DNA from: a virus
IMG/VR virus record: IMGVR_UViG_3300035698_019614
Span: 1 to 20,773 of that record
DNA length: 20,773 nt
Direction: 5' to 3' (one strand)
Shown here: piece by piece, positions 1 to 12,228 of the stretch
How the letters are laid out: every line of letters begins with the position of its first letter
Position numbering within the stretch: position 1 is the first letter of the stretch
The notes under the pieces: model-generated
Told to the model about the DNA's origin: nothing
The model's input: only the letters and a program-made list of their open reading frames with translations
The model's database searches: none
Made by a program: the position numbers and the translations under genes

Positions 1-1
1 A

Positions 2-307
2 ACAATGGCTGTTACTTGCACGCTTAATTCTGATTTGTTGGTGACTGCTACCGTAATAGTAAGAAACACACACGGTTCCACTTTCAAATTAATTGATTTG
101 AGAGTAAGGGTTGGCGGTTGAACAACATTAGCGGGAACATCGTATAACGTACATATACGACCATCATCCGTTCAATCCGTGGTATTACAATTTTTAGATA
201 CAGTACACACCACAGGCCCTTCATATACGATAGAGGCTTTTAGTAATGATGCGGCTTATGTACGTGTGGAAGAAAGAACCTTGTCTTGTGTGGAGTTATT
301 AAAATGA
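2..307 (+). CDS. C-terminal part of a structural/tail-type protein, with an in-frame TGA
   Basis: The frame is open from the left window edge to a TGA at 305-307, except for one internal TGA at 119-121. The segments before and after that TGA read as one protein: a beta-rich, Val/Thr-rich chain with a VRVGG stretch before the stop, then TTLAGTSYNVHI, VVLQFLDTV, GPSYTIEAF and a VEERTLSCVELLK end. That kind of ending is common in tail-fibre or other virion proteins, but no family can be named firmly. No ATG and no ribosome site follows the internal stop, so a separate downstream gene is unlikely. The stop at 305-307 overlaps the next ATG (304) as ATGA, which supports this frame as the real upstream neighbour. 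The internal TGA could be a Trp codon changed by mutation or error, or a leaky stop, since it is followed by A. Confidence 0.5.
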
Positions 308-621
308 GTGGTAAAAATTATCTTATATATAAAAAAACAACTGGTGAAATTATTCGTAGTGTAGGATGCATTCCTGCTGATATAGAAAGAAATGTAATGG
401 AGGGTGAAGCTTTCATAGAGGGGAGAGTGGATCAAAAAAGAAATAAGATTGTAAACAAAAAAATCGTTTCCAAATCAGCGGCAGAATTAAAGTTGGTTGA
501 TGACGATGAAAATATGTTTCCTACAATAGACACGATAACACAAAATCTAATGGATGAGGCAAAAGCAGAAGCCCCAAAATTACATGCTTTGTTAGTACAT
601 ATAGGGGTAATTTTAGAGTAA
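304..621 (+). CDS. Small tail-associated-like hypothetical protein (105 aa)
   Basis: The start is the ATG at 304, which overlaps the upstream TGA; the frame also extends to a GTG at 286, but the overlap decides the start. The N-terminal part (YLIYKKTTGEIIRSVGC, then GEAFIEGRVD and NKIVNKKIV at about residues 35-55) resembles the short opening domain seen in many phage tail-fibre and tail-assembly proteins, where a value is read out of a TG-I pattern followed by a GEA-EG turn. The second half is helical and acidic. No catalytic motif or membrane segment is visible. It lies between a structural protein and the glycan cassette, so a virion or tail role is an inference from resemblance and position. 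Confidence 0.65.
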   Translation: MSGKNYLIYKKTTGEIIRSVGCIPADIERNVMEGEAFIEGRVDQKRNKIVNKKIVSKSAAELKLVDDDENMFPTIDTITQNLMDEAKAEAPKLHALLVHIGVILE

Positions 622-643
622 CAACAAGAGAGGCAGTATTCCA

Positions 644-1321
644 ATGGAAAGGGATGAAGTTTTTATAGTCGGCGGTGGTCCAAGTCTAAAAGATTTTGAC
701 TTCAATAGGTTGAAAGACAAGACAACTATTGTTACCAATGTAGCGATATTTGATGTCCCCAATCCGGATTATTTCATCACGGTCGATTATACTTTTACGC
801 ATAAGATTAGAACCAAACGAGAAATGTTTTTGTCCGCACCATGTAACAAAATATTTGTTGCCGACTTTTCGACCGGCTCTTTGGAGAAAGATGAACAAGG
901 TGTTATTAGGGATACCAGATTCAAATTACAATATAAGCTTCGAGATTTTCATCAAGTAATAACAGCGAAAAAATCAGAGGGTATGGGATTATCCTTTGAT
1001 GATTTTAGAACGGGTTTGAATTCCGGTTTTTGTGCTTTACAATTGGCGGTTCTTCTTGGTTATAAAAATATATATTTGTTGGGTATAGACCTAACCTTTG
1101 ACATACTACAACAATCTCATTATCACACGAAGTACAAAGTTAAAAAATTAAAATTCAACAGGAACCTTAAAAAATACTTTGAATATTTCAAATTAGGTTT
1201 AACAGAATTAAAAGAAATGAAACCAGATACAAAAGTCTTTTCTTGTTGTAAAGGAAGTCCATTGAATAACGTTATTGAGTATAAAGGAATTGATAAAATT
1301 ATTGAAAAGGTAGAAAAATGA
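644..1321 (+). CDS. MptE/DUF115- or GT42-like protein (225 aa)
   Basis: The N-terminus has a glycine-rich nucleotide loop (VGGGPSL, residues 9-15) after a hydrophobic strand, and a later block at about 125-150 (LNSGFCALQLAVLLGY, then IYLLGIDL). Both are hallmarks of the DUF115 / MptE-like fold and of the related GT42 sialyltransferase-like proteins, which bind a nucleotide-activated donor. In phages and flagellar glycosylation clusters such proteins are linked to glycan or nonulosonic-acid transfer. The ATG at 644 has a purine-rich site (AGAGAGG) about 10 bases upstream. The gene opens the cassette and its TGA overlaps the next ATG (ATGA). Donor and acceptor are unknown. Assignment to the superfamily is fairly secure; the reaction is inferred. 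Confidence 0.75.
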   Translation: MERDEVFIVGGGPSLKDFDFNRLKDKTTIVTNVAIFDVPNPDYFITVDYTFTHKIRTKREMFLSAPCNKIFVADFSTGSLEKDEQGVIRDTRFKLQYKLRDFHQVITAKKSEGMGLSFDDFRTGLNSGFCALQLAVLLGYKNIYLLGIDLTFDILQQSHYHTKYKVKKLKFNRNLKKYFEYFKLGLTELKEMKPDTKVFSCCKGSPLNNVIEYKGIDKIIEKVEK

Positions 1322-2208
1322 AAGGGTATTATGAAACTGGAGCCGGCAAAGCAAGTGGGTGTTGCAAGCCTCATACATCTGTTTTTAAGACTACAATGTT
1401 TGGAACTTTTAATATACGAGTTCCAGGTTGTAGGATAACAAATCACGAACCTTCGATTGCGACAGACAAGAAGTCCTACTGGTTTATTGAAATAAAAAGA
1501 AAGGAACGTTCTTGGTTCGGTTGGGCTATTAGGGACCATACTAGCAAACAGTGTGATAATCTTTTAGAAGTGTTAACAAAAGAAAAGTTACCTGAAATAT
1601 TAAAAGAGGGTTCATTAGAAATTATCATCCATAAACATTGGTCCGATTCAAAAATTAAAAAGTGGGCTGATGTAACGTATTGGTTTGAGACTTTTCCTTT
1701 CACGCCTCACCCCAAGGCCGACAGTAATTATGTTTGGGACGCAATTAATAAAATAGATTGGAGCGGTCAAACCGTTTATGACGTAGGAAGTCACTATGGT
1801 TTCTTTTCGTTTAAGGCTAGTGAAAATGGGGCCATAGTTATCGGATATGAGCCCAACAAAAAAACTATAGCGACAGCGAAAATAATACAGAGCAACATAA
1901 TTCACCAAGACGTAGAATTCATAAATAGTCCCAATATAGGACTGTTAAAGCAGCCTTTCGATATTACCCTATACTTGAGCGTTCATCATCAACCGGACCC
2001 AAGCTATGAGCATTTAGAAACAACGATACAAACGTTGAAACAGCGTACTAAAAAACACGTGTTTGTAGAATTAATAATGCCCCCTTTGTTTCCTGTAAAA
2101 AGTTCCTTGACGGAAAAGGATATTGATGGTATTGTAGGTGGGGAAGTATTAAGCAAGTACAAACACAGGACACGTGGACATAGAAAAATATATTGGATAA
2201 AAAAATGA
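1318..2208 (+). CDS. Class I SAM-dependent methyltransferase, FkbM-like, with extra N-terminal region (296 aa)
   Basis: The methyltransferase part starts near residue 140. VYDVGSHYGFFSF (153-165) is the SAM-binding motif I (usually DxGxxxG, here DVGSHYG), and IGYEP (about 175-179) supplies the acidic residue for the ribose. LYLSVHHQPDP is a plausible motif IV. This spacing fits FkbM-type sugar methyltransferases. The first 135 residues are an unrecognised, Cys- and Trp-containing domain, with GCCKPH near residue 14 and a fold that may handle the substrate. The start ATG overlaps the previous TGA and the stop overlaps the next ATG, so it is co-translated with glycosyltransferases. O-methylation of a glycan is the natural inference; the substrate is not visible. 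Confidence 0.75.
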   Translation: MKGYYETGAGKASGCCKPHTSVFKTTMFGTFNIRVPGCRITNHEPSIATDKKSYWFIEIKRKERSWFGWAIRDHTSKQCDNLLEVLTKEKLPEILKEGSLEIIIHKHWSDSKIKKWADVTYWFETFPFTPHPKADSNYVWDAINKIDWSGQTVYDVGSHYGFFSFKASENGAIVIGYEPNKKTIATAKIIQSNIIHQDVEFINSPNIGLLKQPFDITLYLSVHHQPDPSYEHLETTIQTLKQRTKKHVFVELIMPPLFPVKSSLTEKDIDGIVGGEVLSKYKHRTRGHRKIYWIKK

Positions 2209-2876
2209 AGGTAAGTGTTTTAATTCCTACATATAATCGAGCCGAGTATTTACGACATTGTTTACGTTCCATACTTTGTCAAACTTATAAAGATTTGGAT
2301 GTGATCGTTTACGATGATGGTTCTACTGATGAGACGGAAAGTTTGATTAAAAAAATTAATGATGGTCGTATTCGTTATTATAAAAACAATACTAATGATG
2401 GTGTAAGTGTTGCTAGGAATGCTTTGCTTGATTTGGTGAAGACACCTGTAGCGTGTTGGCAGGATTCCGATGATATGTCCAATACGAAAAGAATTGAAAT
2501 ACAATTACAAGCGTTAAAAGAAAACAAAGGCAGATACATTACGACTAATCATATCAGACTCACTCCTCAAAACGAATGTGAATGTTTTGGCAATCCTATT
2601 ATTAATAAACAAGATAGGGGAGGCTCTTTTGCTTCCATTATGTTTGAAGTAGAAAAACTTCCGAATTTTATAAATGGTGTAGATTGTGGTGGTGAGGATG
2701 TCGAGTGGGTTTATGATATAAAAAAACAGGGACGTTCTCAGATCAATATTCCAGAGCGTTTATACTACATAAGACATTCGAACAATGATAGGATAGGCCG
2801 TTTGAAAAAAAAGGATTCAGAAAAAAGAAAAGCTTCGAATTTGAAAAGAAAAGAATACAGGGAGTGTAATGAGTAA
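2205..2876 (+). CDS. GT2-family glycosyltransferase (223 aa)
   Basis: This is a GT-A fold family 2 enzyme. VSVLIPTYNRAEYL (3-16) is the opening nucleotide-sugar binding strand, YDDGSTD (36-42) is the uridine-contacting loop, GVSVARN (66-72) is the conserved helix start, and DSDD (87-90) is the metal-binding DxD site. The protein is short (typical GT2 domains have about 220-260 residues) and has no membrane anchor, so it acts in the cytoplasm or on virion parts. The ATG at 2205 overlaps the upstream TGA at 2206-2208; a TTG at 2193 is open but not needed. The C-terminus is strongly basic. The sugar cannot be predicted. Confidence 0.9.
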   Translation: MKVSVLIPTYNRAEYLRHCLRSILCQTYKDLDVIVYDDGSTDETESLIKKINDGRIRYYKNNTNDGVSVARNALLDLVKTPVACWQDSDDMSNTKRIEIQLQALKENKGRYITTNHIRLTPQNECECFGNPIINKQDRGGSFASIMFEVEKLPNFINGVDCGGEDVEWVYDIKKQGRSQINIPERLYYIRHSNNDRIGRLKKKDSEKRKASNLKRKEYRECNE

Positions 2877-3627
2877 TATCTCTATATGTTTAACGTTTAA
2901 GAATCGTGCTAAGTATTTAGAGCGTTGTTTTGAAAATTTATCACGACAAAATTTTGATTGTAAAAAGATTGAAATATGCGTAGCTGATGGTGGTTCTAAT
3001 GATTCCTGGTTGTCTGTTATAGATAATTGGTATTCAAATTTTTATCAAATAAAAACCGCTTTTTGTGATCGGGAAATGTTGCCTTTTAAGGTCGCTTCTA
3101 ATTGTCCTGCTTGTGATAGAAATTCCTTAATATGTAATATGCCGTCATTCGAAAACGTAATGGTAACTGATCCAGAAATAACTTTTCCGGATAAAAATAA
3201 TTTGATAAAGGTTGTATCGGATTTACAAAATAAAGATATTTTATTATATCACAAAGCCAATCTTTTAGATCCACAGGGAAACAATACCCGTGTAATTAAT
3301 TTTGGTGGTTATTGTTTAGCTTTTAACAAAACCGCTTTTATAAAAAATGGCGGCTTTGACGAAAGGTACGCATTAGGTTTCGCCGGTGAAGACAGTTACT
3401 TTATTTGGTGGTGGAAAAATAATAGCGTAACGAAACAAGCTTCAAGTATAGTCAATCATAACTATCATCCGTCCCCATCAGACAATCTCGTTTACCAAAA
3501 ATTACGAAAAGAATATACCATACCGCTTCACAATAGTTTGAAACAAAAAAATGAACACCCAAACAAGAGTAACAACAAATGGCAAAGGCCTGAGATGTTA
3601 AAGGATGTAAAAATATGGAAGATATAA
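2869..3627 (+). CDS. GT2/GT7-C-like glycosyltransferase (252 aa)
   Basis: The N-terminus is GT2-like: ISICLTFKNRAKYL (4-17), then VADGGSNDSW (38-47). At the usual DxD position there is TDPEITFP (100-107), so the metal site would be DxE. At about 145-177 there is a block GGYCLAFNK, NGGFDERY and GFAGEDSYF, the galactosyltransferase/GalNAc-transferase C-terminal (GT7-C) signature that binds the acceptor; GED is the likely catalytic acid region. NCPACDRN (79-86) is an added Cys pair of unknown role. The start overlaps the end of the previous gene by 8 bases and the stop overlaps the next start. Glycosyltransferase identity is secure; the linkage is not. Confidence 0.85.
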   Translation: MSNISICLTFKNRAKYLERCFENLSRQNFDCKKIEICVADGGSNDSWLSVIDNWYSNFYQIKTAFCDREMLPFKVASNCPACDRNSLICNMPSFENVMVTDPEITFPDKNNLIKVVSDLQNKDILLYHKANLLDPQGNNTRVINFGGYCLAFNKTAFIKNGGFDERYALGFAGEDSYFIWWWKNNSVTKQASSIVNHNYHPSPSDNLVYQKLRKEYTIPLHNSLKQKNEHPNKSNNKWQRPEMLKDVKIWKI

Positions 3628-4361
3628 CTGTACATTGTATGGTAAGAAATGAACCGTTTGTATATTACGCTGTGAAATCGGTTTATAGCTATGTCAGTAG
3701 AATTTTATTATATGATACCGATTCTTACGATGAACATACATTGGAAGATATAGAAAAATTATTGGATGAGGACTACGATAATAAAATAACTTTTGATCGG
3801 TGTCCTATTGATGTGGATGAAACCTTATGGGATGCTAACAATTATAAACGAATGAAAAAAGAGCACGCCGGTAAAAAGGGAAAATGGAGTGTTCGAAAAA
3901 AAATGATAGAAGACACCGACACTAAGTTTTTTATTATTTTAGACGGAGATGAAGTTCATTACAGACATACGATGAAGGCTTTTCAAGATTGTGCTGTCAA
4001 TTGGAAAAAAGGCATGGTTTGCGGTTTCGTTCCTTTGATTTGGTTCTCTGATATGGATAATGTGTTTCGTACTTCCAGAAGCGGTAGAATGTTTCTAACA
4101 GAGGGTACGGATGTGAATACTTGTATTCCTGGTGAGATACATTTACATAAATTTACAAAAGAAATAATAGCCAGAGCCGCACCATACTCTTTCGATGTTC
4201 CGGATGTTTTTCCTTTCGCACATTTCGAAACATTCTTAAAACCGTGGAGAAGAAATCTCGCTGAGTATGATATTAAATTATTTCAAGGTGTTTTACCTGA
4301 AGTGATGATAGACAATCCCTACTATGTAGAGAGGTTCATAGAAGAAAATGGAAAAAAATAA
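3615..4361 (+). CDS. GT2-like glycosyltransferase (248 aa)
   Basis: The opening TVHCMVRNEPFVYYAVKS (5-22) is the pattern of GT2-like proteins that begin with a strand and a conserved RNE. It is followed by LLYDTDSYDE (31-40) and by LDGDEV (109-114), a DxD metal site at the expected distance. A Trp-rich centre (PLIWFSD) and HLHKF near residue 178 may form the acceptor site. The first 13 bases overlap the preceding gene and the last 14 overlap the next, so translation is coupled. It differs strongly from the two upstream GT2 genes, so it is not a recent duplicate. Substrate unknown. Confidence 0.8.
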   Translation: MEDITVHCMVRNEPFVYYAVKSVYSYVSRILLYDTDSYDEHTLEDIEKLLDEDYDNKITFDRCPIDVDETLWDANNYKRMKKEHAGKKGKWSVRKKMIEDTDTKFFIILDGDEVHYRHTMKAFQDCAVNWKKGMVCGFVPLIWFSDMDNVFRTSRSGRMFLTEGTDVNTCIPGEIHLHKFTKEIIARAAPYSFDVPDVFPFAHFETFLKPWRRNLAEYDIKLFQGVLPEVMIDNPYYVERFIEENGKK

Positions 4362-4917
4362 AGCAGAGAAATTTATAGCAGCAACACCTTTATGGTCGAT
4401 TCAAAGATTGATCCGATTGGCTTCCTTGTATGACAATGTTCTTGATATCGGCTGTGGGACGGGGAAATTTATAAAACAGGTTTCCGCCAAGAATCGTCGT
4501 GGCGTTGATGCGTTTCAGCCGGTGATATATAAAGCTAGTGAAAGTAATAATGGTGTTAAATTTTATTGTTACGACTTGTTAAACTTTCCGACATTGTCTA
4601 TTCATAATGCTGTAGAATGTATAACGGGCGTGGATATAATTGAACATTTTGAAAAAGATATAGCTTTGGATATTATTAAGAAATGCGAACATGCTGCGAG
4701 TGATTGCGTTGCTTTTTTTATTCCCGTTGGAAACCATCCCCAAACGAAAGATGATAGAGGTTTTGGCAATAACGAATACCAAACACATCGTAGCTCTTGG
4801 TATCCAAACGACATGATAAAATTAGGATATAAAGTTTTTCATTATCCGGAATGGCATAAAAATATTAAACTGCCAAAAGAAAAAGGAGCAATGTTTTGCG
4901 TAAAAATATTGGGTTAG
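4348..4917 (+). CDS. Class I SAM-dependent methyltransferase, Methyltransf_11/23-like (189 aa)
   Basis: VLDIGCGTGKF (31-41) is a textbook SAM motif I (DxGxGxG). GVDAF follows at about 52-56 as motif II, and CITGVDIIEHFEKD near 90-104 is the motif IV region with the DxxEH pattern of Methyltransf_11/23 proteins acting on small molecules or sugars. There are no membrane segments. It overlaps its neighbours by 14 bases upstream and 22 downstream. Together with the FkbM-like gene at 1318-2208 it gives the cassette two unrelated methyltransferases. Methylation of a glycan or its precursor is inferred from context only. Confidence 0.85.
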   Translation: MEKNKAEKFIAATPLWSIQRLIRLASLYDNVLDIGCGTGKFIKQVSAKNRRGVDAFQPVIYKASESNNGVKFYCYDLLNFPTLSIHNAVECITGVDIIEHFEKDIALDIIKKCEHAASDCVAFFIPVGNHPQTKDDRGFGNNEYQTHRSSWYPNDMIKLGYKVFHYPEWHKNIKLPKEKGAMFCVKILG

Positions 4918-6029
4918 ATATACAAACGAATACCTATCACCCGTTCAACAGCGGGAAGATATTAGTCCATGGTCAAAGAATGGAAGCTATTGTAAACGAA
5001 CAATACATGACGCCCATTGTTTTGAATTTAGATGTAAGCGGTCGGTGTCAGTATCATTGTACTCATTGTCACCATCGTCGTAAACAAGTGAAAAATAAAC
5101 TATTGCCGGATTTGGATGTACGGTTGGCGAATACTCTGCCCTATTTTTTACGTGAATGGGAAATTAAAAGTACAAAAGTAAAAGGTTGTTGTATCGTAGG
5201 CAGCCAAGGGGATGCTTTATTATACCCTCATTTACCTAAACTTTTAAGAGGTTTACACCATAACAATATTCAAATTGGTTTGGTTACTAATGGATACGGT
5301 TACAATGATATGCTTTTAGACTATGCCGCTTTCTATTGTTTGTTCAATGGGTTTAGTATGGATGCCGGTACGGCTAAAGGTTATCAAAAGGTTAAAAATT
5401 GTCCTAAAGATGCTTGGAAAAAAGTTCTTAATAATATTACCCAACTCACCTCCATTATAAGAAAAAATAAATTGAGGAATGATGTAGGTTGGAAAATTCT
5501 TATTTTGCCTGATACATACAAAGAGATATACGAGAGTTGTAAAATTGCGAAAGAAGCGGGATGTCGTTATGTACAAATACGTCCCGCTGACCTACCTGAA
5601 GAAATGATTCAAAGGATAGATATTAATTCGGTAGAAGAACAAATACAAAGAGCCATCGAAGATTTGGAAGTGCCGAATGAATTCGAGATTGTAGGTGTTC
5701 GTCATAAATTTACTTTGGACCTAAAACAAGTGCTTCCCGCTTATTGCTATCTCACGCCATTGACGGTGACTATTACAAGTGACGGAAAAGCTTATGCTTG
5801 CGTTGATAGACGTTGCGATGAAAATACTTTAATAGCCGATTGCGGTAAAGGGGGATGGTCTGCGTTGAAGGATAAATGGGGTAGTGCCGATCATATATCC
5901 ATCGTACATGATGTTATAAATAATAAAGGGAAAGGTCCCAGTTGCTCCATTCGTTGTTCTAATTATGGTTATGATAAATACTTCTTAAACTATTTTGTTG
6001 ATGACAAAGTAGATAGGAATATGATTTGA
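4896..6029 (+). CDS. Radical SAM protein with SPASM/twitch-like C-terminal cysteines (377 aa)
   Basis: NLDVSGRCQYHCTHCHHRR carries the CxxxCxxC motif (C51, C55, C58) that ligates the SAM-cleaving 4Fe-4S cluster. GSQGDALLYPH and GLVTNGYG follow as the GGE-like and beta-strand motifs of the partial TIM barrel. Near the C-terminus are further cysteines (the YCYLTP, YACVDRRC, ADCGKGG region, then C350 and C354 in CSIRC), an arrangement like SPASM or twitch domains that hold auxiliary clusters. The start is a TTG at 4896: an AAGGAG site (4883-4888) sits 7 bases upstream, ideal spacing, and the next in-frame ATG is about 28 codons on. Such enzymes modify peptides or carbohydrates by radical chemistry, for example epimerisation, dehydrogenation or cross-linking. 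It lies between a methyltransferase and a glycosyltransferase, so a sugar or virion-protein substrate is inferred. Confidence 0.85.
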   Translation: MRKNIGLDIQTNTYHPFNSGKILVHGQRMEAIVNEQYMTPIVLNLDVSGRCQYHCTHCHHRRKQVKNKLLPDLDVRLANTLPYFLREWEIKSTKVKGCCIVGSQGDALLYPHLPKLLRGLHHNNIQIGLVTNGYGYNDMLLDYAAFYCLFNGFSMDAGTAKGYQKVKNCPKDAWKKVLNNITQLTSIIRKNKLRNDVGWKILILPDTYKEIYESCKIAKEAGCRYVQIRPADLPEEMIQRIDINSVEEQIQRAIEDLEVPNEFEIVGVRHKFTLDLKQVLPAYCYLTPLTVTITSDGKAYACVDRRCDENTLIADCGKGGWSALKDKWGSADHISIVHDVINNKGKGPSCSIRCSNYGYDKYFLNYFVDDKVDRNMI

Positions 6030-6607
6030 TGTGTTATATTGTAGTTGGCTATTATACTAAAAAAACTTTGTACGAAAAGAAGGCACGTGTCTTAATAAAT
6101 TCCCTTGAAAGATTTTCTGTGCCCTATCATGTGGAGGCTGTTGAGAATTTAGGGGACTGGTATAAGAACACCAACTACAAACCAACGTTCTTAAAACGGA
6201 TGCTATTGAAGTTTCCAGGTTCTAATATCGTATATGTAGATTGTGATGCTGAATTTTTACGATACCCTGTGTTATTTGATACCTTTGATGCGAACGTTGG
6301 TGTTTACGTTTTTGATCGAAGTTGCTACCATAAAAGCGTTGTGGGCACGGAAGTGTTAAGCGGTACTATCTTTTTGAAGAACAATAAAGAGGTTTTTACA
6401 TTAATAGAAAAATGGGAAAAAGAATGTCAAGATAATCCCAGAGTTTGGGATCAGAAATCTTTAGAAAAAATATTGGATGGGAATTACGAATTGTTGCCAG
6501 GTGAGTATTGTAAAATATTTGATCGAATGTTAGAGGTAAAAAATCCGGTCATCGTACATTATCAAGCATCCAGAATAGTGAGGCAACAAAAAGGGTGTTT
6601 GACTTGA
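6029..6607 (+). CDS. GT8/nucleotide-diphospho-sugar transferase-like protein (192 aa)
   Basis: The protein starts with a strand (CYIVVGYYT), has KPTFLKRMLLKFPG at about 51-64, then IVYVDCDAEFLRYP with the DxD site DCD at 71-73. After a strand (VLSGTIFLKNN) comes WDQKSL at about 140, the conserved D-Q acceptor motif of GT8/GT77-like transferases that act on hexoses or glycoproteins. The ATG at 6029 shares a base with the previous TGA (TGATG); the TTG three bases earlier is also open but less likely. It is the last gene of the cassette and a hairpin terminator follows at once. Confidence 0.8.
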   Translation: MCYIVVGYYTKKTLYEKKARVLINSLERFSVPYHVEAVENLGDWYKNTNYKPTFLKRMLLKFPGSNIVYVDCDAEFLRYPVLFDTFDANVGVYVFDRSCYHKSVVGTEVLSGTIFLKNNKEVFTLIEKWEKECQDNPRVWDQKSLEKILDGNYELLPGEYCKIFDRMLEVKNPVIVHYQASRIVRQQKGCLT

Positions 6608-6610
6608 TAT

Positions 6611-6676
6611 GGAAGTGGCTCAGGGTCCTTTCCAACAGCTTTTGCCGGCTGCCAACTCCAGAGCACTTCCTTTTTT
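6611..6676 (+). terminator. Hairpin terminator at the convergent junction (element E1)
   Basis: GGAAGTG (6611-6617) pairs with CACTTCC (6664-6670), extended by CTC/GAG across a bulged G, and is followed by six T (6671-6676). The loop is long and contains GGTCC, a CAGC/GCTG mini stem (about 6635-6651) and CCAACTC. It follows the last plus-strand gene and its T-run reaches the stop of the facing minus-strand gene. It shares its arrangement and short blocks (GGTCC ... CCAACTC ... CNTTCC then T6) with the element at 15960-16036. Confidence 0.7.
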
Positions 6677-7064
6677 ATGCTAGAATATCGGTAGAAAATC
6701 GGGAACGATTATTGGAACTTATTACATCAGTGCCCTTCATTCTTTCAATAACTTTTTGAGCCAATCGGTAAGAGCCTATATTTTTTTCAACTTCTTTTTT
6801 ACAATCACTTAAAAACAATTGTCCTATATTAGATCCAAGCCATTGAATAACAGATGCCGCAACTGTTGCGTCCCTTTGTGTTATATTGCTTATTGAATCC
6901 ATTCGTTCTTCTGTATTTAATATATGAGCTAAAAAACTAAACTCTGGCCCTTGTGGGTTTTCGTTCACTTTCTCCCATACTTCCGCATATATCTTTTCTT
7001 TTGGATTCCATACAATCCGTCTATCAGCACTTACTCCAACGTGTTTTATTTTTTCCATTTCCAT
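6675..7064 (-). CDS. Hypothetical protein (129 aa)
   Basis: No family recognised. The N-terminus has a beta-rich stretch (VGVSADRRIVWNPKEKIYAEVW), the middle and end are helical (ATVAASVIQWLGSNIGQLF and IGSYRLAQKVIERM), and it looks soluble. It is the last gene of the long minus-strand operon. The start at 7064 follows a GAAAG site; an ATG two codons later would also serve. It lies 4 bases after the 55-aa gene at 7069-7236. No function is inferred. Confidence 0.7.
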   Translation of the reverse strand: MEMEKIKHVGVSADRRIVWNPKEKIYAEVWEKVNENPQGPEFSFLAHILNTEERMDSISNITQRDATVAASVIQWLGSNIGQLFLSDCKKEVEKNIGSYRLAQKVIERMKGTDVISSNNRSRFSTDILA

Positions 7065-7068
7065 AATA

Positions 7069-7236
7069 TTACTTTCTTAAAAGTATATCTAAATATTGCT
7101 GTACGAGTTCAAACGATTGTTCCATTGTGAAGCCCTGCTGAAGTGCCCCGATGTAAATGGTTCTTAAAGCGGGCATGACTTGTTCTTTGATATCCTGAGC
7201 TGCTTGTTCCATTTTACTTATGTCTTTAGCTTCCAT
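7069..7236 (-). CDS. Small hypothetical protein (55 aa)
   Basis: This short frame runs from an ATG at 7236, which shares a base with the stop of the previous gene (TAATG), to a TAA at 7069-7071. The protein begins MEAKDISKMEQAAQD and contains MPALRTIYIGALQQGFTMEQ, ending in YLDILLRK. It is mostly helical and resembles the many short helical phage proteins found near structural or regulatory genes. The tight junctions on both sides are the main support that it is real. Function unknown. Confidence 0.7.
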   Translation of the reverse strand: MEAKDISKMEQAAQDIKEQVMPALRTIYIGALQQGFTMEQSFELVQQYLDILLRK

Positions 7237-7481
7237 TATTTATCCTTTATTAAACGACAAAGCATTTTTAATATGAGGGCTTGGGATTTTCTTATCGCAA
7301 TATGATAGTTGGTCAAATCACCGGAAGTGCTTCCGGTACGGTGTTCTAATGTTTCAATATGTTTTTCTGCTTCACATATCATTTGTTTTCTTTCTTTTTT
7401 ACCTTTTTTGACACTATCTTCTAATTGTTCTTGCCAAGACTTTTTTATAGGTGATGGTGGGTTTGGTTGTTTCTTTCCCAT
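7236..7481 (-). CDS. Hypothetical basic helical protein (81 aa)
   Basis: The protein has a Pro/Lys-rich start (MGKKQPNPPSPIKKSW), then a charged helix (QLEDSVKKGKKERKQMICEAEKHIETLE) and an amphipathic C-terminal helix. No domain recognised. The ATG at 7481 has an AAAGGA site about 14 bases upstream inside the end of the preceding gene, and its TAA overlaps the next ATG. It may be a small nucleic-acid or protein-binding factor, but nothing in the sequence proves this. Confidence 0.7.
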   Translation of the reverse strand: MGKKQPNPPSPIKKSWQEQLEDSVKKGKKERKQMICEAEKHIETLEHRTGSTSGDLTNYHIAIRKSQALILKMLCRLIKDK

Positions 7482-7483
7482 TA

Positions 7484-7678
7484 TTATTTTTTTCCTTTCT
7501 TTCTTTTCATCCTTTGAAGATCAAAAAGATATAATATGAATTGAAAGGGTAGTGGTATAGGGCCTAATAATATACACACAAACACATCCCACCATTCCAT
7601 AAGCATGTCTTCATCGTATTTTTTATAAGAAGTATATAACCCGCAACAAATCCAAATTATAATAATACACCATATCAT
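7484..7678 (-). CDS. Small membrane protein (64 aa)
   Basis: There are two hydrophobic segments, residues 1-15 (MIWCIIIIWICCGLY) and about 30-51 (WWDVFVCILLGPIPLPFQFILY), separated by a charged loop and followed by a strongly basic tail (RMKRKKGKK). This predicts a two-pass inner-membrane protein with its tail in the cytoplasm. The ATG overlaps the TGA of the Rad50 C-lobe gene (ATGA). Its role is unknown; it could be a small membrane effector such as an exclusion or holin-like protein, but no specific motif supports that. Confidence 0.7.
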   Translation of the reverse strand: MIWCIIIIWICCGLYTSYKKYDEDMLMEWWDVFVCILLGPIPLPFQFILYLFDLQRMKRKKGKK

Positions 7679-8256
7679 ATTTCAATCACCTTTCCGGTTT
7701 GAAAAGCTGACTCATGTGTTACGATTATAAATTGTACCTTGAAATCTTCCGCCAATTCCTCCAACAAGATACGCACATTCTCTCTGTTCTTCATATCTAA
7801 ATTTCTAAAGGGTTCATCCATTATGATAACTCTTTTTAGGGACGGTTTGGCTAACACGATACAAGAGAGTCTCAAAGCTAAAGCAGCAACGTCGATAACA
7901 CCTCCACTGTCCGCATTTAATACATCTTCTATTTCATGTCCGTCTTTTAATAGTATCAAATTGGCTTCTGTCCGTCCCCGTTTCTTTTCAAAGTTTATCT
8001 TAAAACCATATTCATCCCCAAATACCGCTTCCAAGCATTTACTTACCACGCCTTCAATCCGTTCATGGGCACGCTGTTGTACGAGTTGGGCTATTTGCTG
8101 TGATATTTCTTGTGCTTCTTCTAAATATATTAGTTCTTTAGAAGCGTGGGCAAGGTTTTTTTGTTCCTGTATTCTAGTAGCTTCAACGTGGGCACATTTA
8201 GATAAAAAAGTATCCACTTGTTTTCGACGTTCTATAATTCGTATTACTCTTTTCAT
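7675..8256 (-). CDS. SbcC/Rad50-like C-terminal ATPase lobe (193 aa)
   Basis: Residues 1-70 are a coiled coil. DSGGVIDVAALALRL (116-130) is the ABC/Rad50 signature helix, RVIIMDEPF (142-150) the Walker B with catalytic E148, RNLD (151-154) the D-loop and IIVTHE (177-182) the switch His. No Walker A is present, so it cannot form an ATP site alone. It is the complement of the N-lobe gene at 9695-10717: in one-chain SbcC/Rad50 these halves are joined through a long coiled coil. The pair would power the SbcD nuclease at DNA ends, as gp46/gp47 do in T4 recombination-dependent replication. Its ATG shares a base with the previous TAA. Confidence 0.9.
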   Translation of the reverse strand: MKRVIRIIERRKQVDTFLSKCAHVEATRIQEQKNLAHASKELIYLEEAQEISQQIAQLVQQRAHERIEGVVSKCLEAVFGDEYGFKINFEKKRGRTEANLILLKDGHEIEDVLNADSGGVIDVAALALRLSCIVLAKPSLKRVIIMDEPFRNLDMKNRENVRILLEELAEDFKVQFIIVTHESAFQTGKVIEI

Positions 8257-8528
8257 TATTCATCGTCCTCATCGTCCTCATCGTCCTCATCGTCATCATC
8301 CCATTTCTCTTCAAATTCATCCAATGCTTTTTTAAGATTGTTTTGGAGCTTGGTCCCTTGTGCTTTCAATCCCTCTAATTTTTTTATGGCTTCTTGTAAA
8401 GAATCGCAATCAAATTCTTTTTTAAGTCTTTCTATAATTTGTTCCAAAGCTCCAGAAGCCTTGTCAGCGTTTTGTTGGGCTGTTTCAACCTCTTTTTTTA
8501 TTCGGTTATATCTTTTCATATCATCCAT
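8256..8528 (-). CDS. Coiled-coil protein with acidic tail (90 aa)
   Basis: The start is taken as the ATG at 8528 because AAAGGAG lies 7-8 bases upstream; the frame is open further to 8579, but that ATG has no good ribosome site. Residues 1-75 are a continuous heptad-rich helix (MDDMKRYNRIKKEVE ... LKKALDEFEEKW) and the end is a run of Asp/Glu encoded by 9-base repeats. Placed between SbcD and the Rad50 C-lobe, it may be an accessory or a detached piece of the Rad50 coiled coil. That is inference from position and structure. The acidic tail resembles that of the SSB. Confidence 0.7.
   Translation of the reverse strand: MDDMKRYNRIKKEVETAQQNADKASGALEQIIERLKKEFDCDSLQEAIKKLEGLKAQGTKLQNNLKKALDEFEEKWDDDDEDDEDDEDDE
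8261..8296. repeat. 9-bp tandem repeat (catcgtcct) coding for an Asp/Glu tail
   Basis: Three exact copies of a 9-base unit and one variant lie end to end and encode DEDDEDDED-type residues on the minus strand. The same short unit recurs in the SSB tail near 16255-16690. Confidence 0.85.
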
Positions 8529-8784
8529 TATAAACTCCTTTATGTTTTCTACCATATTCAATCCATCTTCTTCTTTCATCTATTAAGTCTTTGTTTGCTT
8601 TCCTCCAAATTCGTTTCACGCTTTGTTTAGACAAGCCTACATTTTTTGCTATTTCAGAAAGAGGTATATTATCATGAAGTATTTAATTTACGATATAATA
8701 TTCTCTATTCTCATAAAAAAATACATCGGAATATCTTCCATCATTAAGAAAAGGGAGATTTTTTCTTTTCATATCATTTGCCAT
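8521..8784 (-). pseudogene. HTH-containing small protein interrupted by an in-frame TAA
   Basis: From the ATG at 8784, which shares a base with the SbcD stop, the frame runs 33 codons (MANDMKRKNLPFLNDG ... EYYIVN), meets TAA at 8683-8685, then continues 53 open codons to TGA at 8521-8523. That final stop overlaps the next gene's ATG at 8528. The second part holds a clear helix-turn-helix (IPLSEIAKNVGLSKQSVKRIW), as in phage regulators or sigma-region-4-like domains, and has no usable start of its own. Both outer junctions are of operon type, so the intact gene would be 87 aa. A CAA to TAA change explains it; readthrough or a sequencing error are alternatives. Confidence 0.6.
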
Positions 8785-9767
8785 TATAATCCCATAGCCT
8801 TTCTTATTACGTTACAAATTTCCATATTGATATTGTTCTTTGTTAGGTATTGTTCCATTGCCGCTGAAAAGTCTAAATCCGTATCACCGAGTTTTTCAAG
8901 TTCTTGAATAAAAGCTTTCATATTCAAGACATCGTTTTTAGCGGTCAAATTCTGAAGGTCCAGATGTTTGTCTCTTGTACAGTTCATGTAGTAGGGGACC
9001 ATCCTACCAGTGTTATAAAATAAACCTACTTGTGGTTTATATTTTATTTCGTCTGACTTTCTTCTCATCAAAGAGCCACAATTAAAAACGGGTGTGGTTC
9101 CATAGTGCATTAAAAACCCTTTATGGTTATCACCGAACACTAACGCATCATACCCTTTGTACCGTTGTTTTATTAAGTCCTTTCCGTAAAAACCGGCTTT
9201 ATCTTCTTCTATAGCATTCGGGTAACTACAGCCTTCAGTCCAAATGTACTTATGGTTAACAGCGATAGCAATTTCATCTTTTCCTTTATTTTCTAAAGTA
9301 ATTATATCGTATCCAAAAGGAAAACCAAAGGCTGTCATATTAGCAGTGAGAACTCTGTCCTCTGATGGGTACAGATTATTTATTTTCTCTGCTTGAACCA
9401 AAGTCCAATATGCGCTTTTTTCTATGTCGTCATAATTATGTAAAGGTAAATCATGTTGTCCAGGAATCGCATAAAAGTTATCCGGTAGGTTTGTTATAGC
9501 AAAATTAATTAATTCAGGACTACTGTTCCAGCGGTCAAAAATATCACCAGCACAAAGAATAGGACACAAATTGTGTTTTGTTTGTAGGATAGTCAATTCA
9601 TCTAAAGGCCGTTTCATAGCCGCAAACCAATCCGGTTCCGCTGATCGCCCAATTGGCGGATTCAAAGACAGATGAAAATCAGAACAGAAAATTGCTATGA
9701 CTTCTTCTTTTTTACCCCGCACAGCGGGCATCTTTCGCTTGTCGCTTCCTTTAATCTTTTTTGACAT
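8784..9767 (-). CDS. SbcD/Mre11-like nuclease subunit (327 aa)
   Basis: This is a calcineurin-like phosphoesterase with the ordered metal motifs SDFHLS (29-34), GDIFDRW (74-80), PGQHDLP (102-108, where the usual Asn of GNHD is Gln), AVNHKYI near residue 178 and FGDNHKG near 218. It would cut DNA ends with the SbcC-like ATPase (T4 gp47 role). The ATG at 9767 has AAAGGA about 10 bases upstream; a second ATG at 9731 is in frame. It overlaps the end of the N-lobe gene by 73 bases. Homologues are usually 330-400 aa, so it is near full length. Confidence 0.92.
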   Translation of the reverse strand: MSKKIKGSDKRKMPAVRGKKEEVIAIFCSDFHLSLNPPIGRSAEPDWFAAMKRPLDELTILQTKHNLCPILCAGDIFDRWNSSPELINFAITNLPDNFYAIPGQHDLPLHNYDDIEKSAYWTLVQAEKINNLYPSEDRVLTANMTAFGFPFGYDIITLENKGKDEIAIAVNHKYIWTEGCSYPNAIEEDKAGFYGKDLIKQRYKGYDALVFGDNHKGFLMHYGTTPVFNCGSLMRRKSDEIKYKPQVGLFYNTGRMVPYYMNCTRDKHLDLQNLTAKNDVLNMKAFIQELEKLGDTDLDFSAAMEQYLTKNNINMEICNVIRKAMGL

Positions 9768-10717
9768 GGTTCTAATTCCTTTATTGCTTTTTGTGTTCTG
9801 TCTTTTATTGTTTTTGTTTCGTTTATTATACTATCCAATTTAACAAACATCGCTTCAGCATCAGAGTATTGTTGAAGAATATTCTTGATGGGGTTAAAAG
9901 ACGGAGGCCTGTCTTGTATAATTCTTTGTTGTTTTATGCCTCTTTTATTCAAATTCGTTAATGCCTCTATGGTTCCTGCTATTTTCTTATATCTTTTTCC
10001 ATAGGATATAACGTCTTTGCTATCAGACACCATCTCTTTTGCGCTTTTTTGCTCAGCCTCATATCTTCGTACTTGTTTCAAAAGATCATCACGTACGCAA
10101 GCTTTTCGTATGGTTTCTATACTCTGTTTTTCAAGGGTCTCAATCTCTTTCAAATCTGTGTCCATTTTTTTAACGTATGATAAAGATTTTTCAGCTTCCA
10201 CAGCATCTTTTATTCTTTTATTAATCAAACCAATTTCTATTTTTTTTCTTCGTAATTCAGAACCGATAGCACCAAGCGTTTTATCTATGATGTCTAAATT
10301 AACGATTGAATTCAATTGGCGGGATACTTCACCAGCTGTTTCGCAAAACCAAAAGGGGGCATCGTGCTGGCCTTGGAAGTTTATATTGGAAAGGTTTAAT
10401 GCCTTTTGTATTTCATCCGGTACATCGTTTCCAAATGCCTTAAACTCTTTCTTGCCCAATTTGTAGATGTTTTTACTTTTGCCTCTGATACGTGTTACCT
10501 TGTTTTCATCGGATGTAAGACGAACAGCTGCTTTATCCGCATCCCAATTAATTACAGAAGCTCCAGCAGGTTTATTTTTAACCACCCAACGCAAAGCCCG
10601 AATGATCGTACTTTTACCGGCGAAATTTTTACCGACAATAGAGTTGACATGAGGTCCAAATTCTATATCTAATTTTTTATGGGCACGGAAATTTCTTATT
10701 TGTATTCTACTTAACAT
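9695..10717 (-). CDS. SbcC/Rad50-like N-terminal ATPase lobe with zinc hook (340 aa)
   Basis: The protein starts like a Rad50 N-lobe (MLSRIQIRNFRAHKKLDIEFG). It has a Walker A GKNFAGKST (29-37), a Q-loop region NINFQGQHD (111-119), then a coiled coil from about 140 to 325, and stops just after CPLCG (330-334), the CxxC of a zinc hook. No signature motif or Walker B is present; these are in the separate gene 7675-8256. Two hooks could dimerise through zinc, so the assembled complex would be N-lobe, C-lobe and SbcD. The start overlaps the end of the preceding mini zinc gene by 11 bases. Confidence 0.9.
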   Translation of the reverse strand: MLSRIQIRNFRAHKKLDIEFGPHVNSIVGKNFAGKSTIIRALRWVVKNKPAGASVINWDADKAAVRLTSDENKVTRIRGKSKNIYKLGKKEFKAFGNDVPDEIQKALNLSNINFQGQHDAPFWFCETAGEVSRQLNSIVNLDIIDKTLGAIGSELRRKKIEIGLINKRIKDAVEAEKSLSYVKKMDTDLKEIETLEKQSIETIRKACVRDDLLKQVRRYEAEQKSAKEMVSDSKDVISYGKRYKKIAGTIEALTNLNKRGIKQQRIIQDRPPSFNPIKNILQQYSDAEAMFVKLDSIINETKTIKDRTQKAIKELEPCQKRLKEATSERCPLCGVKKKKS

Positions 10718-10943
10718 ATTTATAACCTATGGATAATAATAACCTGGAAAGATCACTATCACTTCCTGTAGCGTATTCGCATACTGTTTTATTGGGTACT
10801 GTTTCCCATTCCCCTTTACGTGGGTCTATTGTTTGGACTGTATTACATCGTGTACAAATTCTGTAAAGACCCAATCCGGATATTTTCCAATCACATCCTA
10901 ACATCCTATATACTATTTTATTTACCTTCGTTTCTGTTATCAT
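10707..10943 (-). CDS. Mini zinc protein, paralogue 5 of a tandem array (78 aa; first Cys lost)
   Basis: The family pattern is IVxRMLGCDW, about 14 residues, then YRICTRCN. In this copy the first Cys of the CRxLGC motif is Tyr (IVYRMLGC), leaving three of four presumed zinc ligands, and the usual RCG is RCN. The tail (EYATGSDSDLSRLLL) differs from its neighbours. The ATG at 10943 is preferred over the upstream TTG at 10949. It overlaps the preceding paralogue by 26 bases and the Rad50 N-lobe gene by 11. It resembles DUF1660-type phage proteins (CxxxGHxW ... CxRCG); function unknown. Confidence 0.75.
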   Translation of the reverse strand: MITETKVNKIVYRMLGCDWKISGLGLYRICTRCNTVQTIDPRKGEWETVPNKTVCEYATGSDSDLSRLLLSIGYKYVK

Positions 10944-11136
10944 TTTCAATCATTATCATTTTCGTTATTTCATTTTTTCTTTTCGATGTTACACCACTCC
11001 ATTGGTATTTATTTGTAAGAAGTCTTGATTGAACACCACCACATCGGGTACAAAGCCTATAAAAAAACTGATTAGAATTTATCCAATCGCATCCTAACAA
11101 TCGGCATACTATTTTATTTTTTAAGGACTCTGTCAT
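10918..11136 (-). CDS. Mini zinc protein, paralogue 4 (72 aa)
   Basis: The protein has NKIVCRLLGCDW near residues 7-18 and FYRLCTRCGGVQ about 13 residues later, giving a complete C-x4-C ... C-x2-C set. The tail (QWSGVTSKRKNEITKMI) is close to that of paralogue 3 (QWGNLSDKRKEVIREMI), so these two are the most similar pair. The first ATG is at 11136; the frame reaches a TTG at 11145. It overlaps paralogue 3 by 23 bases, so translation is coupled. No function can be assigned beyond probable zinc binding. Confidence 0.78.
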   Translation of the reverse strand: MTESLKNKIVCRLLGCDWINSNQFFYRLCTRCGGVQSRLLTNKYQWSGVTSKRKNEITKMIMIENDNRNEGK

Positions 11137-11335
11137 CTTTTTCAACTCGTATCATTTCTCTTATTACTTCTTTTCTTTTATCCGACAAGTTGCCCCATTG
11201 CATTCTATCTATATTGACCGTTGTTTCTATCTTTCCACATCGTAAACAAATTCTGTAAAAGGTTGAATATGACCTTCTCCAAACACATCCTAACATCCTA
11301 CATATTATTCTTTGTCTTTTCTTTTTTGTTAGCAT
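11114..11335 (-). CDS. Mini zinc protein, paralogue 3 (73 aa)
   Basis: After a basic start (MLTKKKRQR) come IICRMLGCVW and FYRICLRCGKIET, a complete four-Cys set with the family's fixed Trp after the second Cys. The tail is charged and helical. The ATG at 11335 lies inside the end of paralogue 2 (7-base overlap). Length and layout match the other members of the array, which supports a series of duplications followed by divergence. Confidence 0.78.
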   Translation of the reverse strand: MLTKKKRQRIICRMLGCVWRRSYSTFYRICLRCGKIETTVNIDRMQWGNLSDKRKEVIREMIRVEKDDRVLKK

Positions 11336-11595
11336 CTACTTATATTATCACCAATTCGTTCCGGTTTTGTTAATCCTTTTTTATTTTTATTTTTATTTTT
11401 ATTTTTTTCGAGAGAGCCTGTCAACTTGTCATCACCTTTTTTCGTTTGCGGATTAAGAACAGCACGTTCATTTTCATTTCCTATGCTGAATAACCCACAA
11501 CGGACACAATATCCCACATCAATCGTTTTCATCATACCATTCCAATCGTGCATTAATAATCGACATAGTATTTTATTTTTATCTTTTTCCGTCAT
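11329..11595 (-). CDS. Mini zinc protein, paralogue 2 (88 aa; His in place of second Cys, Lys/Asn repeat)
   Basis: NKILCRLLMHDW replaces the second Cys with His, giving the C-x4-H form seen in DUF1660-like proteins, and VGYCVRCGLFS closes the site. It is longer than its sisters because of a KNKNKNKNKK stretch near residues 66-75, encoded by a hexanucleotide repeat at 11381-11408. Two ATG codons in tandem (11598 and 11595) could start it. It overlaps paralogue 1 by about 17-20 bases. Confidence 0.75.
   Translation of the reverse strand: MTEKDKNKILCRLLMHDWNGMMKTIDVGYCVRCGLFSIGNENERAVLNPQTKKGDDKLTGSLEKNKNKNKNKKGLTKPERIGDNISRC
11381..11408. repeat. Hexanucleotide repeat (TTTTTA) coding for Lys-Asn repeats
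   Basis: About four copies of a 6-base unit lie inside paralogue 2 and encode the KNKNKNKN run on the minus strand. Copy-number changes would stay in frame and alter only the linker length. Confidence 0.8.
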
Positions 11596-11767
11596 CATTT
11601 TTTATCTGATACGTTGTTTCAAGTAGGCCAGATTTAGGCATTTCATTATGAATTATTGTTTTCATATCCCCGCATCGAGAACAACGTCTATGATAGGATA
11701 TACCACATAACGTCCATTCACATCCTAACAATCGACATACTATTCTATTTTTTTCGTTATTGGTCAT
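11579..11767 (-). CDS. Mini zinc protein, paralogue 1 (62 aa)
   Basis: This is the first of the array in transcription order. The ATG at 11767 shares its base with the stop of the 3D-domain gene (TAATG); an upstream in-frame start at 11809 lies inside that gene and is not needed. NRIVCRLLGCEW and HRRCSRCGDMKT give the full four-Cys set, with an additional Cys (TLCGIS) between. The short tail lacks the helix of paralogues 3 and 4. Zinc binding is inferred from ligand spacing; the partner, nucleic acid or protein, is unknown. Confidence 0.78.
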   Translation of the reverse strand: MTNNEKNRIVCRLLGCEWTLCGISYHRRCSRCGDMKTIIHNEMPKSGLLETTYQIKNDDGKR

Positions 11768-12228
11768 TATTCTATAATAATTTCTACATATAAATATTGA
11801 ACACCCCATTCTAAAGCTTCTTGGTGAGTGTCAAAATAAACGTCGATACAATTACCTTTAATAGCACCACCTCTATCCAAAACAGGCACAACTCCGTAAC
11901 CAGGAATATTTAACACGGTAAGGAAAGGTAAAGGGGAAGCACAAAACCTGTCGCCCTTCCTTATTCGGTGACCACTCGCTGTTATCCTGTCTGCGTATTC
12001 ACCACAACATTTTTCACAGGGACAGTAAGCAGTCACTTTGTATTTTTGTTTGCTTTGTTTTTCTATTAATTCTGTTTCTAAAGCTTCCACTTTTTTTAAT
12101 AAGGTAGAAGATTTTTGTCGGGCTTTTTGTATGTCTTTTTGATTAACCACCGTCCCTATGAATAAAACAAAAGCCACTCCACCTAGAAACAATAAAGTCC
12201 CCACTATTTTATCAGTGTCTTTGATCAT
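11767..12228 (-). CDS. Membrane-anchored 3D-domain protein, putative cell-wall enzyme (153 aa)
   Basis: A hydrophobic segment at about 8-27 (KIVGTLLFLGGVAFVLFIGT) acts as signal anchor, a coiled coil (33-60) follows, then a domain beginning KVTAYCPCEKCCG and ending VPVLDRGGAIKGNCIDVYFDTHQEALEWG. This is the 3D domain, named for its three Asp (D118, D129, D133 region), a double-psi barrel related to MltA-type lytic transglycosylases and common in Firmicutes cell-wall proteins and phages. It likely faces the outside of the membrane and trims peptidoglycan, or acts in lysis or superinfection control. The start at 12228 has AAAGGAG 6-7 bases upstream, one of the strongest sites in the window. Confidence 0.85.
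   Translation of the reverse strand: MIKDTDKIVGTLLFLGGVAFVLFIGTVVNQKDIQKARQKSSTLLKKVEALETELIEKQSKQKYKVTAYCPCEKCCGEYADRITASGHRIRKGDRFCASPLPFLTVLNIPGYGVVPVLDRGGAIKGNCIDVYFDTHQEALEWGVQYLYVEIIIE

Follow-up and report, generated by a model that had tools for sequence, protein, structure and literature searches.

We found that a cassette of eight genes in a virus fragment from IMG/VR (20,773 bases, called the window below) is one allelic form of a modular locus, in which the genes at the two ends are constant and those in the middle are exchangeable, and which occurs with several types of phage tail. The cassette consists of eight open reading frames (ORFs) on the plus strand, spanning positions 644-6607 of the window, with overlaps of 4-22 bases between successive ORFs. 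Assignment to Pfam and PHROGs families gives the gene order MptE-like, methyltransferase, GT2, GT2, weak GT2, methyltransferase, radical S-adenosylmethionine (SAM) enzyme and PF03407 (Table 1). An earlier note on this DNA had read the interval as eight overlapping glycan-building ORFs, which the ORF calls, overlaps and family assignments confirm. We consider it probable that the cassette assembles a glycan in the cytosol and that this glycan is attached to a virion protein.

Conserved end genes and an exchangeable middle

By seven scans of the viral contigs in IMG/VR we obtained 41 distinct contigs with an MptE-like gene, the window included. This gene opens the cassette in nearly all of them and is 40-54% identical to the window's copy in 13 aligned relatives; a pattern scan of 85,000 genomes found no cellular relatives of its clade. 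In 22 of the 41 contigs the cassette ends with the PF03407-like gene, and many of the other contigs stop before its place. Its identity to the window's copy is 46-68% in 14 relatives, the motif D72-x-D74 is invariant in 15 loci, and two relatives of the gene were found in metagenome-assembled genomes (MAGs). Cassettes with both of these bookends have 6-15 genes (median 9.5) and measure 4.9 to 10.6 kb.

The interiors are of several kinds. One set is common to the window and to contigs L002, L003, L013 and L075, and a quite different one to L019, L026, L030, L053 and L056. Other interiors have genes for a B12-radical SAM enzyme, FkbM methyltransferases, polysaccharide pyruvyl transferase, UDP-GlcNAc 2-epimerase, an epimerase like GDP-mannose dehydratase, RmlC- and RmlD-like enzymes, and NeuB with a CMP-sugar synthetase. 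Of 16 records, four have a NeuB that scores above the cut-off, each time within the cassette. The earlier note had proposed a search for the same eight-gene order in other phages, and a fixed order is not what we found: the full series is retained in its order only by L002, L003 and L075, in all three of which a ParB-methyltransferase gene has been added, and in L013 the position of ORF3 is taken by a GT90-like gene. Apart from that one position in L013, which holds a different gene, all eight ORFs are intact in the four nearest cassettes, with identities of 39-74%. The DXD-like motif LDGDE of ORF5 is invariant across four sequences, and in ORF7, which is 65-74% identical across four relatives, both the CxxxCxxC motif (C51, C55 and C58) and the C-terminal cysteines are invariant. 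Among 50,697 records, no cultured phage was found to have the interior gene c7 or the GT90-like gene.

A profile search with ORF2, alongside which a fold search was run, returned methyltransferases including WbdD. For its N-terminal domain we considered a CTP-dependent riboflavin kinase, prompted by the pattern of GTFNI and LEVLTK-LP, and rejected it: PF01982 gave no match to this domain up to E = 10 in searches that recovered the archaeal controls, and a profile search of PDB was negative.

Such a variable interior, with 37 singleton genes in 15 loci, is also what would be expected of a cargo hot spot, where host-derived genes are swapped selfishly or neutrally at a tolerant site and serve no single conserved function. 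We give this explanation very little credence, as it does not fit the conservation of the two end genes (40-68%), the intact and overlapping ORFs, or the fact that nearly every gene belongs to glycan chemistry. In addition, fusions join the MptE-like gene to two kinds of partner, an ORF2-type methyltransferase in L012 (9959-11560) and a GT2 glycosyltransferase in L019 (2484-3740), L026 (3821-5041) and L030 (2412-3701), and these fusions tie the first gene functionally to the interior genes. We also noticed that the cassette starts with two consecutive MptE-like genes, one of about 250 aa followed by the usual one, in nine contigs of the fibre type (L008, L012, L044, L045, L052, L055, L065, L068 and L075).

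The cassette and the rest of the phage genome have different nearest relatives. In a tree of the SMC C-terminal gene, the window groups with L053 and L059 (support 100/99), to which it is 70% and 68% identical, respectively. These two contigs carry a different cassette set, and their MptE-like genes belong to a clade of 18 members (100/100) from which the window's gene is excluded. Deep branching inside the mixed MptE group is poorly supported. The window's cassette is closest to that of L075 (74% identity in the radical SAM enzyme), a contig of the fibre tail type; its last gene is nearer to relatives other than L075. Because the backbone is nearest to L053 and L059 but the cassette is nearest to a contig of another tail type, we conclude that cassettes have been exchanged. 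By these comparisons the cassette moves between phages as a unit, or nearly so, docking behind different tail modules.

Linkage to virion genes and the proposed acceptor

A gene for a tail hub, a lambda-J-like protein or a fibre lies no more than three genes upstream of the cassette in 28 of the 41 contigs. PHROGs assignments add tail genes in L056, L066 and L070, making 31 contigs with tail genes, and head genes in L081 and L083, so that an assigned structural gene is within three genes of the cassette in 33 of 41. Three tail types are represented: lambda-J-like, another tail-hub family and the fibre type. Of the remaining contigs, one lacks upstream sequence, the window is truncated there, and three carry large ORFs without an assignment. 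The cassettes of L081 (4975-8400) and L083 (1-3000), which stand behind a phrog_771 major head gene, are divergent MptE cassettes with an epimerase, a GT2 and an ORF2-type methyltransferase. In an unrelated podovirus, ctQWt234, a cassette with radical SAM and glycosyltransferase genes lies between the major capsid and stabilisation proteins.

To the left of its cassette the window includes just an ORF of 106 aa and roughly 300 bases of an incomplete gene, for which no match was found. The earlier note had placed the cassette directly after structural genes; this cannot be read from the window alone, and it gains support from the synteny of the 106-aa ORF. Its homologues in L030 (phmmer, 1e-6), L057 and L059 each lie between a gene for central tail fibre J, assigned by phrog_31 in L030 and by J model matches in the other two, and the MptE-like gene, and from this placement the order in the window is most likely J, small ORF, cassette. 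The partial frame (positions 2-307, plus strand) is open except for an in-frame TGA at 119-121, and its terminal TGA overlaps the next ATG. The in-frame TGA could be a genuine gene end or come from a misassembly. It also led us to consider recoding of TGA, which is not supported because four cassette genes and several replication genes terminate in TGA.

We identify the first gene as a predicted glycosyltransferase of the Maf/GT42 superfamily. Its product matches PF01973 (2.7e-7) and CST-I (GT42, 9e-4), both slightly under the curated cut-offs, as well as a PHROG for alpha-2,3-sialyltransferase (1.4e-17), and a profile search with it finds CstI (2.9e-5) and CstII. When its AlphaFold model (pLDDT, the predicted local distance difference test, of 88) was used in a fold search, the sole matches at E <= 1e-3 were to CstII (2.0e-6, probability 1.00, TM 0.52). 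N32 and S127 of the protein align with N31 and S132 of CstII, which, together with a histidine as catalytic base, we take to be catalytic or CMP-binding residues of that enzyme; H159 is invariant among the relatives and H161 nearly so. PF01973 is the Maf_flag10 domain, and there the crystal structure of Maf resembles CstII (PMC11339370). We do not file the protein as a Maf proper, because it is a single domain of 225 aa and does not have the full three-domain Maf architecture.

The earlier note had stated that the genes include no membrane anchor and no carrier-lipid motif, and this held. There are no membrane segments in the eight ORFs (the highest Kyte-Doolittle mean over 19 residues is 1.46), and only 5 of 311 cassette genes have a hydrophobic segment, a single one in each case. 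Phosphoglycosyl transferase (PF02397), flippase (PF01943) and GtrA (PF04138) were each found in 0 of 16 records, several of which are fragments, in searches whose controls were recovered.

A virion protein is favoured as the acceptor because there is no lipid-carrier route, because the locus is linked to tail and head genes, and because the only fold matched by the first protein is that of CstII (GT42, the Maf-domain fold). Two independent parallels, phage CcrColossus (see below) and podovirus ctQWt234, also favour such an acceptor. The acceptor is most probably the tail-tip or fibre protein whose gene lies immediately upstream. The virion glycosylation system suggested by the earlier note is upheld as regards its linkage to virion genes and the missing lipid-carrier step; the acceptor itself we infer. 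The scheme that follows proposes donor sugars, an order of steps and a purpose, and is built on the gene content, families, lack of a membrane route, virion-gene linkage, bookend conservation and cassette exchange obtained here. The MptE/Maf/GT42-like protein would form the link between sugar and protein on Ser or Thr, or carry out a key early step, using a CMP-activated acidic sugar supplied by the host, for example CMP-Kdo or a nonulosonate. Maf enzymes O-glycosylate Ser and Thr residues of flagellin by adding nonulosonates, and two of them accept CMP-Kdo and CMP-Neu5Ac (PMC11339370). In the window's case the donor would be host-supplied, since the window has no nonulosonate genes. The GT2 enzymes would then lengthen the glycan chain, and the methyltransferases and radical SAM enzyme would modify its sugars or its cap, the middle glycosyltransferases and tailoring enzymes together building a chain specific to each phage. 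The PF03407 enzyme would perform a step shared by all versions of the locus. The purpose is probably to vary the surface chemistry of the particle against recognition by hosts, competitors or immune systems. More tentatively, we propose a serotype-like locus, in which a GT42/Maf-like starter and a finishing glycosyltransferase surround exchangeable enzymes that make a protein-linked tail-tip glycan differing between phages, and which moves across tail types as interchangeable 'glycotypes'.

Several observations weigh against a glycan on a virion protein. The catalytic histidine of CstII has no clear counterpart in the alignment with the first protein, whose activity is therefore not assured. 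PF01973 also includes archaeal MptE, which is a pterin kinase. The window's own cassette lacks nonulosonate genes. Ten of the 28 tail calls depend on the fibre-type family, itself only weakly assigned as structural (2.5e-6 to 8e-4), and L046, L048 and L074 have no structural gene within three genes of the cassette. Linkage to late genes could also have its cause in the timing of expression or in a site that tolerates insertions. Finally, a Flavobacteriales MAG (L042, 9375-12787) contains, away from any virus, a chromosomal-looking cluster in which c7, the GT90-like gene and the last gene (39%) all have homologues. The ORF that precedes these homologues looks MptE-like by eye and matched no profile.

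The L042 homologues would suit an alternative in which the cassette alters the surface of the infected cell (by receptor masking or superinfection exclusion) or its lipopolysaccharide rather than the virion. The enzyme types resemble those of bacterial surface-glycan loci, and WbdD-like methyltransferases cap bacterial O-antigen. We regard this alternative as unlikely, given the missing phosphoglycosyl transferase, flippase and GtrA, the near absence of hydrophobic segments, and the late, tail-adjacent position of the cassette; lysogenic conversion in particular is unlikely because only 1 of the 16 records has an integrase. By the same searches, lipid-linked O-antigen synthesis or serotype conversion is not supported.

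Phage glycosyltransferases are known to make DNA glycans on modified bases (Pyle et al. 2024, as cited in PMC12619734), and the cassette might similarly hypermodify phage DNA. The L002 record has a gene of the thymidylate-synthase family (contig positions 19367-19996, minus strand) about 10 kb from its cassette, as well as an ORF that we read as C5-methylase-like, and is the sole relative that possibly modifies its DNA. We judge DNA hypermodification very unlikely, in line with the earlier note, which had ranked it below virion glycosylation. A tie to DNA-modification genes, which the earlier note had named as a refuting result, was looked for in the relatives and not found: the thymidylate-synthase/dCMP-hydroxymethylase family (PF00303) is missing from 13 of 14 records, several of them fragments, and for this reason DNA modification is disfavoured and, as a candidate, not supported. 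HMUDK kinase and Tet_JBP dioxygenase gave no match, in searches in which no positive control was recovered. The neighbours of the cassette are tail and head genes rather than replication genes, and genes for nonulosonates and pyruvyl transfer are a better match for surface glycans.

Least probable of all, in our estimate, is that the cassette yields a soluble small molecule or unusual nucleotide sugar and has no macromolecular acceptor. All of its enzymes are cytosolic, tailoring by radical SAM enzymes and methyltransferases would be in keeping with such a product, and some cassettes have CTP-transferases. Against this, a growing chain is implied by the several glycosyltransferases per cassette, there is no obvious export, and the position behind tail genes would be left unexplained.

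Other features of the window

Table 1. Positions in the window of the cassette ORFs and of the small ORF before them. Numbers in the last column are the match values for the family named.
Feature	Position	Strand	Basis
106-aa protein of unknown function	304..621	+	homologues between tail gene and cassette in relatives
ORF1, left bookend, MptE/Maf_flag10/GT42-like, predicted glycosyltransferase	644..1321	+	PF01973, CST-I, PHROG, CstII fold
ORF2, N-terminal domain unknown, C-terminal SAM methyltransferase	1318..2208	+	Methyltransf_31 0.0047
ORF3, GT2 glycosyltransferase, start TTG 2193 or ATG 2205	2193..2876	+	PF00535 4.4e-29
ORF4, GT2-type glycosyltransferase	2869..3627	+	PF00535 1.7e-8; alignment of four relatives
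ORF5, GT2-like glycosyltransferase, weakly assigned	3615..4361	+	PF00535 0.013; LDGDE
ORF6, SAM-dependent methyltransferase	4348..4917	+	Methyltransf_25 9.8e-6
ORF7, radical SAM enzyme, cysteine-rich C-terminal region	4896..6029	+	PF04055 7.8e-9
ORF8, right bookend, PF03407-like glycosyltransferase, start TTG 6026 or ATG 6029	6026..6607	+	PF03407 1.5e-7

To the right of the cassette is a convergent replication module with genes for RecA-like, 5'-3' exonuclease, PDDEXK nuclease, SbcD-like and SMC-like proteins. Promoter and terminator matches in positions 1-7300 of the window were not above those in shuffled sequences, and there were no Rfam or tRNA matches.

Three observations concern genes on the minus strand in this right part. 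The SbcC-like protein is split between two genes (7675-10717): one for the N-terminal part (9695-10717), which ends in a CPLCG zinc-hook motif, and one for the C-terminal part (7675-8256). The SbcD-like gene lies between them, and the identical split occurs in L003, L006, L013, L030 and L053. At 10707-11809 a tandem array of five small paralogues (73-89 aa) has a common CRLLGCxW...RCxRCG pattern; they are probably a zinc-ribbon family expanded in tandem. The protein encoded at 16154-17413 has a long, acidic C-terminal half that is D/E-rich and internally repeated, with KKKTKKKSSKKK repeats.

Comparison with known glycosylation systems

Glycosylation of phage virions is itself already known; in open-access full texts we found no paper on a cassette of this kind, large and modular, whose ends are constant and whose middle is exchangeable. 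The subscription literature could still contain one. If our reading is right, many environmental phages carry variable glycans, among them sialic-acid-like sugars, on the end that recognizes the host, and these are swapped like bacterial O-antigens, which would affect how phages are recognized by hosts, by competing phages and by animal immune systems. Virion glycosylation would widen from a few mycobacteriophages to a modular and widespread system, and the locus would be a source of soluble enzymes for protein glycoengineering. The question could be tested in cultured phages such as CcrColossus.

That Caulobacter phage provides a cultured parallel. Its tail gene gp125 is followed directly by gp126, which is MptE-like, and then, before the lysis genes, by glycosyltransferase-like genes, so that gp126-gp131 share with the cassette a tail protein directly followed by MptE-like, glycosyltransferase and methyltransferase genes. 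The first gene is only about 30% identical, however, and the remaining genes differ. In mycobacteriophages, phage-encoded enzymes glycosylate capsid and tail proteins of the virion (Freeman et al. 2023, as cited in PMC12619734). Phage-encoded glycosyltransferases are the point in common; the system proposed here differs in being large and modular, with conserved ends, a GT42/Maf-like first gene, a radical SAM enzyme in the window and differing tail types.

The DNA-glycan hypermodification clusters of phages (Pyle et al. 2024, as cited in the same source) likewise have multiple phage glycosyltransferases, but the cassette has no consistent base-activating enzyme and is linked to virion genes. 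The Maf flagellin glycosyltransferases have the same Pfam domain and a CstII-like fold and are also cytosolic, and some of the relatives' loci carry NeuB and NeuA; the Maf target is a protein on an assembled filament, to which the proposed phage target can be likened. The window's protein differs from Maf in consisting of one domain of 225 aa and lacking the additional Maf domains; it would act on a phage protein, and genes for further glycosyltransferases come after its own. Lastly, the locus resembles bacterial O-antigen and capsule loci in its constant flanks, exchangeable interior and similar classes of enzymes, and differs from them in that no phosphoglycosyl transferase or flippase was found in the 16 records and that the cassettes have almost no membrane proteins.

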